From an uncultured Pseudanabaenaceae cyanobacterium (GTDB lineage Bacteria; Cyanobacteriota; Cyanobacteriia; Pseudanabaenales; Pseudanabaenaceae), in NCBI GenBank assembly GCA_937927915.1, contig CALGKB010000001.1:124001-188000 (forward strand): a DNA stretch of 64,000 bases, read 5' to 3'. Position 1 is the first letter of the stretch. Each line of letters starts with the position of its first letter. A program made the position numbers and the translations under genes. Positions 4,577 through 58,634 of the stretch are shown piece after piece. The notes under the pieces are model-generated. The model made no database searches. It saw nothing but the letters and a program-made list of their open reading frames with translations, and was not told the DNA's origin.

Positions 4577-5360
4577 TTCTTCTTTACTCGCGATTGTCAT
4601 TGAGTTAGGAGCAGAGGGAAATAAATTTTTACCTGGTACTCTGGGTCGTGCTCTGCATAGTCAGGTGATAGGATGGATTGCCGATGTAGATGCGGTTCTG
4701 GCAGAAGCTATTCATACTGCAAGAGATACGCCCTTTACTATTTCCCCTTTGTTTGGTAATAGACGGCATGGCAAGCCTGTTGTAGGTGAGTCTTTCTTCT
4801 TTCGGATTAGTCTTTTGCAGGGTTCCATCTTACCTATCATTTTGCAGGGACTGGAGAGATGGGAAGATAAAAGTATTGTTTTGGGTGGTCATGCTTTTCG
4901 GTTGAAGGCAATTTATTGTCTGCCTGGTAGTCATAGGTGGGCTGGTTCATCAGATTATAATCTATTGTCCTCTTTAGCCATACCCCAGAAGGAAATTACT
5001 TTGGTCTTTCACACTCCTACTAGTTTTAAGCAAAAGGATTTTGTGCAACCTTTCCCTTTGCCTGATCTAGTGTTTGGTAGTCTGTGGCGTAAATGGAATA
5101 GTTTCTGTCCAGCCGATTGTAAAATGGAGGAGGAAGTATGGCAGGTTTTAGTGTCTGGGTTTGATTTGCAAACTAGGGTGTATCGCTTAGAGGGAGGTGC
5201 AGAAATTGGTTGCCAGGGTTGGGTGCGTTATGTTTTTACAGAAGAAAGACAGGCAAGGTGGGGTTCTGTTCTATCTCATTTTGCTTTTTTTGCTGGTGTC
5301 GGTAGAAAGACAAGTATGGGTATGGGTTTGACACGTTTGAGGGAAAGTTATGAGCAATGA
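4554..5360 (+). CDS. cas6: CRISPR endoribonuclease Cas6 (type I-D)
   Basis: Processes the precursor crRNA at the base of the repeat hairpin. It is 268 residues, usual for I-D Cas6. The C-terminal glycine-rich segment GVGRKTSMGMGLTRL is the Cas6 signature loop. ATG 4554 overlaps csc1; a second in-frame ATG six bases on is an alternative. The stop TGA 5358-5360 overlaps the start of the cas4 stub at 5350. Cleavage of the + strand transcript in the repeat would leave the usual eight-base handle ACTGAAAC. Confidence 0.88.
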   Translation: MAMVHRDSSSLLAIVIELGAEGNKFLPGTLGRALHSQVIGWIADVDAVLAEAIHTARDTPFTISPLFGNRRHGKPVVGESFFFRISLLQGSILPIILQGLERWEDKSIVLGGHAFRLKAIYCLPGSHRWAGSSDYNLLSSLAIPQKEITLVFHTPTSFKQKDFVQPFPLPDLVFGSLWRKWNSFCPADCKMEEEVWQVLVSGFDLQTRVYRLEGGAEIGCQGWVRYVFTEERQARWGSVLSHFAFFAGVGRKTSMGMGLTRLRESYEQ

Positions 5361-5433
5361 AGACTTGCTTTTATTAAGCAGTTTGAATGCCTGGGAATAC
5401 TGTCAAAGACGTTGTCTACCCTTTTTTACCTAG
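5350..5433 (+). pseudogene. cas4: cas4 remnant (27 codons, truncated by deletion)
   Basis: ATG 5350 overlaps the cas6 stop and opens a 27-codon frame ending at TAG 5431-5433. The peptide contains LSSLNAWEYCQRRC, which matches the start of Cas4, where a Leu-Asn-x-x-x-Tyr-Cys-x-Arg-Arg motif contributes the first iron-sulfur cysteine. The sequence then passes directly into cas2. A full cas4 is about 190-200 codons and cas1 about 330, so roughly 1.5 kb has been lost between this point and cas2 (inferred from typical locus order cas6-cas4-cas1-cas2). The stub is too short to have nuclease activity. Confidence 0.82.
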
Positions 5434-5910: not shown

Positions 5911-6387
5911 GTTTCTTTCTGATGAATCCCGATCGCGGGACTGAAACCGTTGTAAAGCCTCAGTGAAACGTACCTGTTCAAGTGTTTCTTTCTGATGAAT
6001 CCCGATCGCGGGACTGAAACAGGAATGGCTCTGTACAAGGATTTGAGGGTGCTACGTTTCTTTCTGATGAATCCCGATCGCGGGACTGAAACGGGTGGGA
6101 GAATCTTTAGATTGAACTGTTCCGACCGTTTCTTTCTGATGAATCCCGATCGCGGGACTGAAACCGTTGTAAAGCCTCAGTGAAACGTACCTGTTCAAGT
6201 GTTTCTTTCTGATGAATCCCGATCGCGGGACTGAAACCGGAAATGGCTACTGAAGCAGAACCCACAGGAGGTTGCGTTTCTTTCTGATGAATCCCGATCG
6301 CGGGACTGAAACTGGAATACACAGTCGAGACCGTGTCTTGTCGTTTTGTGGTTTCTTTCTGATGAATCCCGATCGCGGGACTGAAAC
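5911..6387 (+). CRISPR. Type I-D CRISPR array: 7 repeats, 6 spacers, one spacer duplicated
   Basis: Seven identical 37-bp repeats start at 5911, 5984, 6056, 6128, 6201, 6276 and 6351. The repeat begins GTTTCTTTCTGATG and ends GCGGGACTGAAAC, with the hairpin CCCG-ATCG-CGGG in the middle. It resembles the type I-D repeat of Synechocystis in its hairpin and ACTGAAAC handle. Spacers are 36, 35, 35, 36, 38 and 38 bp. Spacer 1 (5948-5983) and spacer 4 (6165-6200) are identical over all 36 bases. The last repeat shows no decay. The leader is on the cas side, with a promoter at 5867-5896. Confidence 0.98.
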
Positions 6388-6501: not shown

Positions 6502-7809
6502 CTATCTAATTACGCAGGCGGGGAACTTGCCAAACTCAGGCGTGGCATCGGGATAGAAGGTGCGAATGCCAGAAGCACGGCGGAAGAACATGGTCTTGAA
6601 GTTCTTGCCATCATCTGTCACATCCAGAATGCAACCATCGCTGCTCGCAGTGTTACTGGAGGGATTGTCACGGAAGGCTTTGGTGACAAACTTCAGGAGG
6701 TCTTCGGCACTCAGAGTATAGCCATAGCCCTTGATAGCGCTCTCGGAAATGCCACCGCTAGCATTGCGCATCCGTACTCCGATCGTGTAAATCACCCCTG
6801 GCACAATTTCCTGTTTACTGCTGTTATTGAGAAGACGACCAGCTAGACCCTTTTCCTGCAGGTCCAAATAACGGGCGTGGAAATGCAAACCACCTACTTT
6901 GCCCCCTGGCTCTGGCTCACCGCAGAAGATATGGTCAAACCCTTTGGTGTTGGGGTCAAACCAAGCCGCTGCTAATTGATCGAGGTACTGGTCGGGGTTG
7001 GTGTACTGGGCAGGACGGTTACCAAAGACGCGATAGCCCGTAAACTGCATGATGCGGTTAAGTTCGGCGGGGTATTTCTTCATGGCGTTCTTGAAAGTGG
7101 TAGCGCTTACAGCAGTCCCAGGTGCCCCGCAGATGGCTGCCATTTCCCGATCGAAGGCAGTGAGAGTAGGAGGGGGTGGGGTAGGGTCAACATTGCCACC
7201 GAAGGCATTATTTTCGGGATTGTTGATTGTGTCAAAGAAGGGACCAGTGCCAGGAATACCACCACCAGGAGCAGGAGTAGGCGTAGGAGTAGGGGAGGGA
7301 GTGCTAGAGCTGGCAACCTGAATGACATTGCCACAGCCGCTAATAGCTGTCCAGTCCAAAACACCGCCGTTATTCAACTGGACGTGGGTAGAAGCAGCAG
7401 GATTCGTTTGCTGATTGAAGGCAGTGATGGCATAGAAAGTGCCATTTTGTAAGCGCTTGCTGCTAGAAGAAATACCGGCAATACTACTAGCTACACGACA
7501 GGTGTTAGTAGATTGAAAGACAGGCAACCTGCCGCAGCCATTGATAGCCACCCACATTAACTGACCGTTATATTCAATGCGTACGTGGGTAGAGTCGTTA
7601 TAGCCTCTATTGATTTCACGGGCATTGTACTGAATGTTGCTGACCAGCCTTTGGGAGCTAGATGTGATACCACTGATGGAACTAGCCACTTGACAGGTGG
7701 AAGTAGCAGTAAACTTAGTTCCAGGGGGGAGAGTCGTTGCAGCAAAAGCCGGAAAAACTAGAGTCCCTAAGTATAGAGGGACTGCCAAAAGTGCACTACG
7801 TTTGAGCAT
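6502..7809 (-). CDS. Secreted protein with two SH3-like repeats and an EndoU-like nuclease domain
   Basis: 435 residues. A signal peptide (about 1-23, ending AFA) is followed by two tandem repeats of about 65 residues, each with a Cys-x-VASSI-x-GI-x-SSS start and a Trp-x-x-Ile-x-x-CG end (about 38-93 and 103-161). Next come a Pro/Thr linker (about 168-182) and a C-terminal domain. That domain holds GFDHIFCGE and GGLHFHARYL. His293 and His309 are 16 residues apart, the same spacing as the two catalytic histidines of XendoU, and Lys360 is a candidate third residue. Family knowledge: EndoU proteins cleave RNA and occur as secreted toxins and effectors. No immunity gene is evident next door. The repeats may bind the cell wall; this is inferred. 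Confidence 0.68.
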   Translation of the reverse strand: MLKRSALLAVPLYLGTLVFPAFAATTLPPGTKFTATSTCQVASSISGITSSSQRLVSNIQYNAREINRGYNDSTHVRIEYNGQLMWVAINGCGRLPVFQSTNTCRVASSIAGISSSSKRLQNGTFYAITAFNQQTNPAASTHVQLNNGGVLDWTAISGCGNVIQVASSSTPSPTPTPTPAPGGGIPGTGPFFDTINNPENNAFGGNVDPTPPPPTLTAFDREMAAICGAPGTAVSATTFKNAMKKYPAELNRIMQFTGYRVFGNRPAQYTNPDQYLDQLAAAWFDPNTKGFDHIFCGEPEPGGKVGGLHFHARYLDLQEKGLAGRLLNNSSKQEIVPGVIYTIGVRMRNASGGISESAIKGYGYTLSAEDLLKFVTKAFRDNPSSNTASSDGCILDVTDDGKNFKTMFFRRASGIRTFYPDATPEFGKFPACVIR

Positions 7810-7917
7810 AAATTCCTGCAGAAAAAGACAGCTTTATTAGGATAATACCCAAACCATACCCCTTAGGTTAAGGTCTGTTTAACTTTCTTTGCCCTGGTAG
7901 TGGCTGCCCCCCTAGTA

Positions 7918-9438
7918 TTAGTGTAAAAAGTGCCGCACCTTGCTAAACATCATTGCTATTCCCAACTCATTTGCCGCCTGGATGGAGTCCTGATCACGGA
8001 TGCTGCCCCCCGGTTGCACGATCGCTTTTATACCTGCCTGCGCCGCTGTTCTCACAGAATCGGCAAAGGGAAAGAAACCATCACTGGCTAGGACTGCTCC
8101 CTGTGCTTTATCCCCTGCTTGTTGAAGGGCAATTGCCACAGACCCCACGCGGTTCATCTGCCCTGCCCCAATCCCTAGAGTGACACCTGCTTTTGCCACC
8201 ACGATCGCATTAGATTTCACATGACGACAGACCCGCCAAGCAAACACCAAATCTGCCAGTGTGTTCCCATCGGGGGTGAGAGTAGTAACGGTCTGCCATT
8301 GACTGACATCAACGGGGAAGGTATCTGCTGTCTGTACTAAAAAGCCTCCACTAATACATCTAACTAACGTTGGGGGACTTTGCCTAAAATCAGATAGGAG
8401 TAGCACTCGCAAATTGGGCTTCTGTTGCAAGATCGTCAGTGCTTCTTGGTCTGCGGCTGGGGCAACTACACATTCCAAAAACGTGCGGGTCAACTCCTGG
8501 GCAGTAGGCGCATCGATTGGTTTTGTCAGCGCTACAATCCCCCCGAAGGCAGAGACGGGGTCCGCAGCAAATGCTTTCTGATAGCTTTCTAGGAGGGTTT
8601 CCCCCTGAGCCACACCGCAGGGATTGGTATGTTTGATGATGACGGTAGTGGGCAGCGCTGTACTTTCACCCATGAACTCAGCGGCAAGGGCGCGGGCTGC
8701 CTCCAGGTCTAGCAGATTGTTGTAACTGAGTTCTTTGCCTTGCCATAGAGTTGCCGTAGACCAGCCTACCTGACCAGTTTGGTACCAAGTAGCCTGCTGG
8801 TGGGGATTTTCGCCATAGCGCAGCGGTTTGGGATTTGTCCCCCGTAACAGGAAATCTTGCCTGCCAGCTAGGTAGTTGCTAATTGCCCGATCGTACTCCT
8901 GCGTGTGGTCAAACACCGCGATCGCTAATTGACGGCGGAATTCTAGGGTTGTACCCCCCGCTGCCAGTTGGGAGAGATAACGATCGTATTGACTGGGCTG
9001 ACAGAGAACTGTGACGTAATGAAAGTTCTTAGCTGCCGCCCGCAGTAAGGTGGGACCGCCAATATCAATCTGCTCGATCGCTTCTGCTTCTGTGACACCC
9101 TCCTTGGCAATTGTCTGTTGAAAGGGATAGAGATTGACGACTACTAGATCAATGGGGGTAATGCCCTCTCTCTCCAGGTCTGCCACATCCTCGGCTATAC
9201 CCAAGCGCGCCAAAATCCCGCCGTGAATCTTAGGATGGAGGGTTTTTACCCTGCCCCCCAAAATCTCCGCTGCCCCTGTGTAGTCCGATACCTTGGTAAC
9301 AGGGATGCCTGCCGCCTGCAAAACCTGCGCCGTACCGCCACTGCTGAGGATTTGGTAGTGATAGCGATCGGTCAGCACCTTTGCCAATTCTACAATTCCT
9401 GTCTTGTCCGCCACACTGAGGAGAGCCAGTTTAGTCAT
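7918..9438 (-). CDS. purH: Bifunctional AICAR formyltransferase / IMP cyclohydrolase
   Basis: Catalyses the last two steps of purine synthesis to IMP. The chosen start at 9438 gives 506 residues beginning MTKLALLSVADKTG, the normal PurH N terminus; an upstream in-frame start at 9492 would add 18 unrelated residues. The N-terminal MGS-like cyclohydrolase domain contains GGRVKTLHPKIHGG. The C-terminal formyltransferase domain contains RYGENPHQ and the catalytic KHTNPCG motif. The gene stands alone, divergent from the DUF1800 gene, and is full length. Confidence 0.95.
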   Translation of the reverse strand: MTKLALLSVADKTGIVELAKVLTDRYHYQILSSGGTAQVLQAAGIPVTKVSDYTGAAEILGGRVKTLHPKIHGGILARLGIAEDVADLEREGITPIDLVVVNLYPFQQTIAKEGVTEAEAIEQIDIGGPTLLRAAAKNFHYVTVLCQPSQYDRYLSQLAAGGTTLEFRRQLAIAVFDHTQEYDRAISNYLAGRQDFLLRGTNPKPLRYGENPHQQATWYQTGQVGWSTATLWQGKELSYNNLLDLEAARALAAEFMGESTALPTTVIIKHTNPCGVAQGETLLESYQKAFAADPVSAFGGIVALTKPIDAPTAQELTRTFLECVVAPAADQEALTILQQKPNLRVLLLSDFRQSPPTLVRCISGGFLVQTADTFPVDVSQWQTVTTLTPDGNTLADLVFAWRVCRHVKSNAIVVAKAGVTLGIGAGQMNRVGSVAIALQQAGDKAQGAVLASDGFFPFADSVRTAAQAGIKAIVQPGGSIRDQDSIQAANELGIAMMFSKVRHFLH

Positions 9439-46234: not shown

Positions 46235-46331
46235 TTTGGCAAAAAGTACGTGCTAGACACATCGAGAGTCAAAACCATTCCCGACTCCCCGTTCCATACC
46301 GTCGCAAACAGTTTCCAACAAGACGGAAAGC
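46235..46331 (-). repeat. Two decayed CRISPR-like repeats with a spacer-sized gap
   Basis: 46235-46269 aligns over its length with the intact repeat of 46612-46792; in the 22 bases after AAGT 15 match. 46311-46331 is an exact copy of the first 12 and last 9 bases of that repeat, with the 14 central bases (the hairpin) deleted. The gap between them is 41 bases, the size of a spacer. They read as the worn trailer end of the same array. A third, weaker match may lie at 46158-46188. Confidence 0.6.
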
Positions 46332-46365
46332 CCGGACACAAAATCAAAGTAAGTGAGGGACATAG

Positions 46366-46593
46366 TTAGTACACAGTAAATTCTGGTGGGTCTTTTGTGT
46401 AATCCATTTTGAAGGGGACAACTTCCCCTTGGGTTCTGATTTTGCCAGAAATGATTCTGCCTCTAATTTCGTAGCTAACAAGTTTGGGGCTGGGGACCAT
46501 TTCAGACAGAATATCAATCATTGCTCTCTGCAGTTCTACTTTCTGAACATCCCGGTGCAATTGTCTCAGCCTCTTTCTAAACCGACCCGTCAT
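46366..46593 (-). CDS. Small basic protein encoded inside a CRISPR-like array
   Basis: 75 residues, not recognised. The N terminus is strongly basic (MTGRFRKRLRQLHRDVQKV), followed by a helical then beta-like part and a final DPPEFTVY. AAAGGA lies 8 bases before ATG 46593, so translation is likely. The gene lies between the intact repeats and the decayed repeats of the same array, on the strand I infer to be transcribed. Its small size and basic start would suit a nucleic-acid binder, but this is only inference. Confidence 0.55.
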   Translation of the reverse strand: MTGRFRKRLRQLHRDVQKVELQRAMIDILSEMVPSPKLVSYEIRGRIISGKIRTQGEVVPFKMDYTKDPPEFTVY

Positions 46594-46611
46594 AGTTTTA
46601 TCCTTTCTTAG

Positions 46612-46792
46612 GTTTCCAACAAGTCCGTGTTAGGCACACGGAAAGCTATCCAGACCAGGAGGTTTTGGTTTCCTCTTTTCTGGTTTCCAACAAGTCCGTG
46701 TTAGGCACACGGAAAGCCATTAGAGGTATACACCCCGTCGATCGGGAGGCAATTTCTGTTTCCAACAAGTCCGTGTTAGGCACACGGAAAGC
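46612..46792 (-). CRISPR. CRISPR-like array: 3 perfect 35-bp repeats, 2 spacers, no adjacent cas
   Basis: Identical repeats at 46612-46646, 46683-46717 and 46758-46792, starting GTTTCCAACAAG and ending ACACGGAAAGC on the + strand. A 7-bp hairpin TCCGTGT/ACACGGA with loop TAGGC lies inside. Spacers are 36 and 40 bp and unrelated. On the minus strand the repeat ends TTGTTGGAAAC, like many crRNA handles; decay of copies at the low-coordinate end also puts the leader at the high-coordinate side, so minus transcription is likely. It is unrelated to the 5.9-kb array. Confidence 0.75.
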
Positions 46793-46958
46793 CTCCTCCT
46801 TTTAGGAGTTGGTTCTAGTATAGCTTCTAGGGACTGATCCCGAACACCTCTGGACAAAAAAGTTTTTGGAGGCATTTTTACCCTTCTCCAAGGGCTGAAA
46901 CCCTTACAGGGAGCACAACCGAGCACCTCCCACGTAAAAATAGGATTTTGGGCTTTGC

Positions 46959-47879
46959 CTAGGGGCGATCGGTGGAATTTTGTACTGCTTTGCCATTGCG
47001 TTGCCATTGGGCTGGTTTGATGCGGCGGAGAGCTGAGCCTGCAAATCTTTTTTCCCACTCTGCCTCGGTCATGGCTGCTAGTTCTGCGGCGGAGGGATTG
47101 AGGTTATGGGGGTAGGGCTGAAATTCTGCTACTGTGGTTGGCTGGGCAAATTTGCGGTTCCAGGGGCATACGTCCTGGCAAATGTCGCAACCTGCTACCC
47201 AATTCTGCAAGTTCGCCACGATGTCTGGGGGGAGGGTGGGGGCGCGATTCTCGATCGTGTGGTAGGCGATACATTTACGGGCATCGACGACAAAGGGGGC
47301 AACGATGGCTTGGGTGGGGCAAGCGACAATGCAACGGATGCAGGTGCCGCAGTGTTCGGTGTGGGGACGATCGGGTTCCAGGGGGAGGGTGGTGAGGACT
47401 TCGCCCAAAAAGAGCCAGGAGCCGTAATCTTTGGTGATGAGATTGCTATGTTTGCCAATCCAGCCGATGCCTGCCCGCTCTGCCCAAGCTTTTTCCAGGA
47501 GGGGTCCGGTGTCCACGTAGTAACGGGTTTGACAGGGGGCTTGCTGCTCTAGCCAGGTTGCCAGTTGTTTGAGCTTTTTGCCTAGTACTTTGTGGTAGTC
47601 TTTGCCCCAAGCGTAGCGGGAAATTTTTGCCCCCTCTTGGCTGTGTTTGTGGGGGGTGTAGTAGTTGAGGGCGACGCTGATCACAGATTTGACCCCTGGG
47701 AGGACTTGCTGGATGTCTTGGCGTTTGGGATTGCGCATCCACTCCATGTCAGCGTGGTAACCCCGATCGAGCCAGGCTTGTAATCTTGCCACTTCTTCTC
47801 CCTGGAGGGCGGGGGCAATTCCCACCTTGGTAAACCCGAGGCGGAGGGCATAGTCCTTAACTGCTTGGGCTGTCACCAT
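46959..47879 (-). CDS. queG: Epoxyqueuosine reductase
   Basis: 306 residues. Last step of queuosine synthesis in tRNA, cobalamin- and iron-sulfur-dependent. Two ferredoxin-type clusters: [16 protein letters not shown] and [11 protein letters not shown]. The N-terminal part ([27 protein letters not shown]) is typical. Its start lies 23 bases inside the aroA 3' end, so translation is probably coupled. Confidence 0.94.
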
Positions 47880-57992: not shown

Positions 57993-58634
57993 TTAATTAT
58001 TAGCTCCTGCTTGTATAGTACTACCATTCTTTGGTTGGGGTGGACGTAAAAAACTAAGAAGAATACGAAACACTTGCTCTAGGTCAGCGGGCACGCGGTA
58101 GAGATTTAAGTCCTGTTGCACTAATTTTTGTAGGCGGTCTAAAACACCAAATTGCCATATATCTCCAGTAGTCACTGCCCCTAAAATGCAGGATTGCTGA
58201 TTTTCTAGCCACCGATCGAGGGCAATTAATGCCGCTGTGAGCTGGCTAAATCCACGGCTGAGGTCAGCTTGCTTCGCTTCAATAATAACTACACTTTGTT
58301 CTGCTTCTAGGTAGTAATCAACAATACCCTGCAGTTGCTCATTGAATTTGACACTGTATTCTACGCGTAACCTTGCCTTAGTGTAATAAATCAATTCACT
58401 AATAAGTGGCGCCATCATAAATTCACGGCGGGCAGTTTCATTTTCTAGTTCTAGATAAGGTAGGATGTCTTGAAGACGCTGTTTCAAAGGTTCTAATCTG
58501 TCTAGGACACCAGAATATAGGGGGAAATCAAGTGGTAGTTTTTGGAAGCTATAGCCAAATTCCCGCGGCACTATACCCATCTCAAAATAGTTGTTACAGG
58601 TATAAGACCGATCGAGTAATATCTTTCTAGACAT
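57993..58634 (-). CDS. PD-(D/E)XK-like protein of unknown function
   Basis: 213 residues. GIVDYYLEAEQSVVIIEAKQADLSRG has the Asp, Glu-x-Lys and hydrophobic strand of the restriction-endonuclease-like fold. It is preceded by a helical part. Such proteins in cyanobacteria are often uncharacterised relatives of restriction enzymes. No methyltransferase gene is adjacent. The end of the aminotransferase gene overlaps its start by 8 bases. Confidence 0.7.
   Translation of the reverse strand: MSRKILLDRSYTCNNYFEMGIVPREFGYSFQKLPLDFPLYSGVLDRLEPLKQRLQDILPYLELENETARREFMMAPLISELIYYTKARLRVEYSVKFNEQLQGIVDYYLEAEQSVVIIEAKQADLSRGFSQLTAALIALDRWLENQQSCILGAVTTGDIWQFGVLDRLQKLVQQDLNLYRVPADLEQVFRILLSFLRPPQPKNGSTIQAGANN

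Follow-up and report, generated by a model that had tools for sequence, protein, structure and literature searches.

A leader-proximal remnant of a type III-B CRISPR array, probably stranded without its cas genes by rearrangement, in a Pseudanabaenaceae cyanobacterium

The window analysed in this study, a stretch of 64,000 nucleotides from an uncultured Pseudanabaenaceae cyanobacterium, carries a CRISPR-like array at positions 46235-46792 on the minus strand, flanked on the left by a gene for a dynamin-like GTPase and on the right by queG. Three exact copies of the 35-bp repeat GTTTCCAACAAGTCCGTGTTAGGCACACGGAAAGC were located at 46758-46792 (adjoining the leader), 46683-46717 and 46612-46646, with 0 exact copies being expected from shuffled sequence. 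Between them lie a leader-proximal spacer of 40 nt (spacer 2; 46718-46757) and a leader-distal spacer of 36 nt (spacer 1; 46647-46682), the locus combining near-identical short direct repeats with unique spacers of similar size. The repeat is predicted to fold into a hairpin with a 7-bp stem (-10.6 kcal/mol, z -2.4) and to leave a single-stranded tail of 12 nt.

Beyond the third intact repeat, a truncated copy at 46311-46331 consists of GTTTCCAACAAG joined to ACGGAAAGC, the hairpin core having suffered an internal deletion of 14 nt, and a spacer-length gap of 41 nt (46270-46310) separates it from a worn copy at 46235-46269. The latter is identical to the repeat at 24 of 35 positions, which makes it the best match in the window outside the intact array (the next best reaches 22), and when the 278-bp region was shuffled 5000 times this level was never attained. 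The initial annotation had proposed three perfect repeats with hairpins, two spacers and decay at one end; all of these were recovered, and the decay holds for the distal copies, in the same region as a gap that also contains a plausible small gene, discussed below.

It had also been noted that the repeat differs from the type I-D repeat found elsewhere in the window and that no cas gene adjoins the array, and both statements hold: the two repeats are unlike each other, and the I-D cas genes lie approximately 40 kb away. When as many as three mismatches were allowed, the home genome (G000; 2.40 Mb in 13 contigs, 98.94% complete) yielded no repeat copies beyond the three intact ones described here, while an exact scan of the genome_contigs collection gave no match and the only Rfam match in the window was a tRNA. 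The small number of intact copies (three) and the lack of a phage target for the spacers would suit a non-CRISPR repeat family or a chance tandem repeat. The dispersed single copies that the initial annotation had named as the result that would speak for such a family were looked for and are absent. Furthermore, in a congeneric sister species (G002) an array of 18 copies of exactly this repeat, separated by 17 different spacers (C1:231322-232607), lies beside cas genes and has a leader homologous to that of the home array, which rules out a non-CRISPR family and leaves that explanation a negligible probability.

In G002 the array starts 181 bp downstream of cas2, and next to it lie cas1, cas2, genes for Cas10b, Cmr3, Cmr4, Cmr5 and Cmr6, two CARF proteins and a PD-(D/E)xK protein, a composition which defines the locus as type III-B. 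Within the window, a gene at 57993-58634, flanked by a staphylococcal-nuclease-like gene on one side and an aminotransferase gene on the other, encodes a PD-(D/E)xK protein 38% identical to that of the G002 locus. The two arrays share the same 35-bp repeat, a homologous leader, spacers of similar size (36-43 nt in G002) and a worn distal copy, but differ in that the G002 array counts 18 repeats and adjoins cas1-cas2 and cas10b/cmr genes, whereas the home array has three intact repeats and no cas genes. None of the 17 G002 spacers equals either of the two home spacers; spacers therefore differ between relatives that possess the same repeat. At up to three mismatches, the repeat was found solely in G000 and G002 among 390 genomes of the class. 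Judged from the identity of its repeat to one that adjoins III-B cas genes, the home array can be regarded as III-B by origin, a type that the initial annotation had left unnamed.

The 181 bp at 46793-46973 (minus strand) align with the G002 sequence from the cas2 stop codon to the first repeat, being identical at 139 of 180 aligned positions (77%), and thus provide the array with a leader at one end that is homologous to the leader of the same system. This homology places the leader at the high-coordinate end and makes minus the crRNA strand, in agreement with the orientation previously proposed from the one-sided decay. A strongly conserved block, GAGGTGTTCGGGATCAGTCCCT...AAGCTATACTA, includes the -10-like hexamer TATACT shortly upstream of the repeat; a promoter scan called no site in the leader.

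To place the repeat within a broader family, homologues of the G002 Cas10b were used to retrieve 10 further loci, in eight of which an array was found. The crRNA-strand repeat ends in TTGGAAAC or ATGGAAAC in seven of these eight arrays, one consensus among the seven having T as its last base, while the eighth ends in TTGAAAAC. At the plasmid locus of Synechocystis sp. B12, whose Cas10 is 44% identical, the repeats start with GTTTCCAACTAATCCG on the opposite strand, i.e. they end in GTTGGAAAC. In most repeats of the Cas10b family the hairpin comes early and leaves a long single-stranded tail, although in two the predicted fold pairs part of the tail; among the I-D and III-D repeats examined, most have their hairpin late, with a short tail behind it. 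The repeat RNA of CRISPR3 of Synechocystis sp. PCC 6803 (III-Bv), the one exemplar of that named subtype compared here, likewise has the form found in the home array, a hairpin and then a long single-stranded tail ending in TTGGAAAC. The CRISPR3 repeat of strain 6803 ends in TTGATTGGAAAC (PMC3575380). The resemblance is one of repeat form; the body of the CRISPR3 repeat is different, and strain 6803 retains its effector genes.

Whole-genome cas searches of G000, covering Cas10b, RAMP and Cas1 proteins, revealed no homologue of Cas10b/Cmr2, and the five RAMP matches all fall in a single III-D locus on contig C4, which encodes Csm2-, Csx10- and Csx19-like proteins. A complete III-B system is accordingly absent from the genome as searched, and the array is an orphan, as had been suggested. 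Besides the III-D locus on C4, the searches returned a type I-B-like locus on C5, whose Cas4-Cas1 fusion is the sole intact cas1 recovered. On contig C3 (L045, approximately 7700-8300, minus strand), a decayed cas1 fragment with stops and frame changes, which presumably resembles Cas1 of type I-E, suggests that a further CRISPR system has been lost.

Both tsaD and a response regulator gene, which neighbour the cas locus in G002, are present in G000 without that locus. An assembly gap was rejected as the explanation for the absence at both places, given that a different gene follows tsaD, while at the response regulator homology extends no further than the stop codon and nothing homologous to cas genes follows. 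For the genome as a whole, with its contigs and completeness as given above, some residual chance persists that a cas locus lies within an assembly gap.

The genes flanking the home array lie apart from one another in G002 and in a further relative (G001). The stretch homologous to the queG region of G002 starts at 46966 and the stretch homologous to the leader of G002 stops at 46973, the two overlapping in the 8-bp octamer ACCGATCG (46966-46973, minus strand), where the 3' end of queG is joined to the leader. The octamer is present at both parent sites in G002, namely the end of queG and the boundary between cas2 and the leader, and by this comparison it is the breakpoint of a rearrangement. 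It contains CGATCG, the core of the cyanobacterial HIP1 motif, and the junction would fit recombination at a short repeat containing CGATCG. No cas2 remnant was detected near coaD, where the reciprocal junction was sought.

The three intact repeats have accumulated zero substitutions in 105 nt, as against a leader divergence of 23%, which points to a recent loss if the repeats have been unconstrained since. Under that condition, and assuming leader-like rates, the cas genes would have been lost in roughly the last 21% of the branch, a rough estimate. Perfect repeats and a conserved promoter-like block also fit an array that is still in use.

Comparison of both spacers with phages (blastn) and IMG/VR (exact cores) yielded no credible target. 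Spacer 2 (window 46718-46757) resembles approximately 34 nt of the organism's own hisD (L088, 1175-1207), with about five differences including a one-base gap (E 0.0019), and a crRNA derived from it would be antisense to the hisD mRNA. The match scores 41, shuffles retaining the CCCCGTCGATCGGG core reaching a maximum of 38 (0.16 Mb). Because the gap falls within a coding stretch and CGATCG is abundant, we treat this match as suggestive only.

The 280-bp gap between the third intact repeat and the truncated copy is mostly filled by a 75-codon ORF on the strand of the array (46366-46593, minus), which was missed in the initial annotation. It starts 18 nt after the repeat, a Shine-Dalgarno-like AGGA precedes its ATG by 7 nt, and an ORF of such length was obtained in just 42 of 5000 random 280-mers. 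Its codon score lies in the low range of genes and slightly above the 95th percentile of wrong frames. A single-sequence AlphaFold model with a pLDDT of 84, comprising one long helix and four strands, favours a real protein. These features would also fit if the leader had become the promoter and 5' UTR of this ORF, making the locus an ordinary small gene, which is compatible with its being a relic. Against this stands the lack of any homologue in 58 related genomes, genome_contigs, phages, plasmids, IMG/VR, Pfam, PHROGs or NCBIfam, as well as structural matches that are middling at best, and we consider the small-gene explanation unlikely. In the comparison with viral structures a SIRV1 protein ranked first (E 0.016) and a chain of the SIRV3 AcrID1 reached E 1.0, while VIA-align gave a best Z of 5.6, to unrelated helix-plus-sheet proteins. 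An anti-CRISPR identity is unsupported by matches so weak and unspecific. The whole intergenic region had no match in plasmids or phages. The ORF may be a small gene, captured or inserted, whose sequence would ride on the transcript of the array. That it is a real gene expressed from the captured leader, for example for a mobile-element or CRISPR-inhibiting protein which replaced part of the array and whose arrival was tied to the loss of the III-B effectors, seems very improbable.

Taken together, the repeat, leader and junction make it highly probable that the locus is the leader end of a III-B array, of a Cas10b family akin to that of Synechocystis CRISPR3/III-Bv, which was stranded by a rearrangement and whose effectors were lost. 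It is a genuine CRISPR immune-memory array that lacks its partner cas genes, and most likely a recently stranded relic, not a novel type of system. In the ancestor, a promoter in the leader would have driven a minus-strand pre-crRNA, to be cleaved within the 12-nt single-stranded repeat tail, a step that in the Synechocystis system falls to the host's RNase E. The resulting crRNAs, with 5' handles derived from ...TTGGAAAC, would have been loaded onto a Cas10b-Cmr complex that senses target RNA and signals via the CARF effectors. We infer that a rearrangement at the common ACCGATCG octamer then cut the unit of leader and array from cas2, and that the effector genes were lost.

In Synechocystis 6803, RNase E cuts CRISPR3 RNAs in the course of crRNA maturation (PMC10989914); knock-out of cmr2 abolishes all CRISPR3 RNAs, and Cas6 knock-outs leave them unaffected (PMC3575380). 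The dependence on cmr2 implies that an array without cmr2 should be silent at the level of crRNA, and by this analogy the home array would be expected to yield no stable crRNAs. It is thus most likely a recently orphaned, non-functional relic.

The array might instead serve in trans, its leader driving a transcript that RNase E or a Cas6 would process and that the III-D complex encoded on C4 would take up. The intact repeats and the conserved leader block, the two Cas6 proteins of G000 and the absence of an array from the 19-kb stretch examined around the III-D locus could be adduced for this. The requirement of Synechocystis CRISPR3 RNAs for their own Cmr2, and their indifference to Cas6, argue against such use. 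In addition, a homologous III-D locus in another genome (G005) adjoins an array with an I-D-like repeat, ending in GGGACGGAAAC and with a late hairpin and thus unlike the repeat of the home array, so that the I-D array is the likelier partner of the III-D complex. We therefore rate use in trans as distinctly unlikely, and retain the reading of the locus as a stranded relic. The III-D effector locus itself (L043, 6355-16708) also encodes a Csx1-type CARF-HEPN protein.

The I-D locus of the window shows peculiarities of its own. It lacks cas4 and cas1 (window 5360-5412), positions 5411 and 5413 being contiguous at the point where in G002 a cas4-like ORF and cas1 are interposed within 1.5 kb; the home I-D array is without a Cas1 of its own. 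Within that array (window 5911-6387) a segment of 115 nt is duplicated (5911-6025 and 6128-6242, 99% identical), so that a spacer occurs twice, and the array is adjoined by a gene for a bacterial EndoU-domain protein (PF14436; window 6502-7809).

Orphan arrays are a known and ordinary kind of locus, and those of Enterococcus faecalis and Streptococcus pyogenes (PMC5294841) are likewise devoid of their cas genes, with a repeat that differs from the repeats of the genome's other CRISPR systems. The present example differs from them in being III-B and cyanobacterial, and in that its parent and breakpoint, which are unusually clear, can be named from a sister species. The intact III-B locus in the sister species and the leader with three repeats described here constitute a before-and-after pair. 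Since the break can be placed to within eight bases, the loss of this CRISPR system can be dated roughly and its cause put to the test, and a III-Bv-like array that lacks Cmr2 offers a natural test of whether crRNAs persist without their effector.
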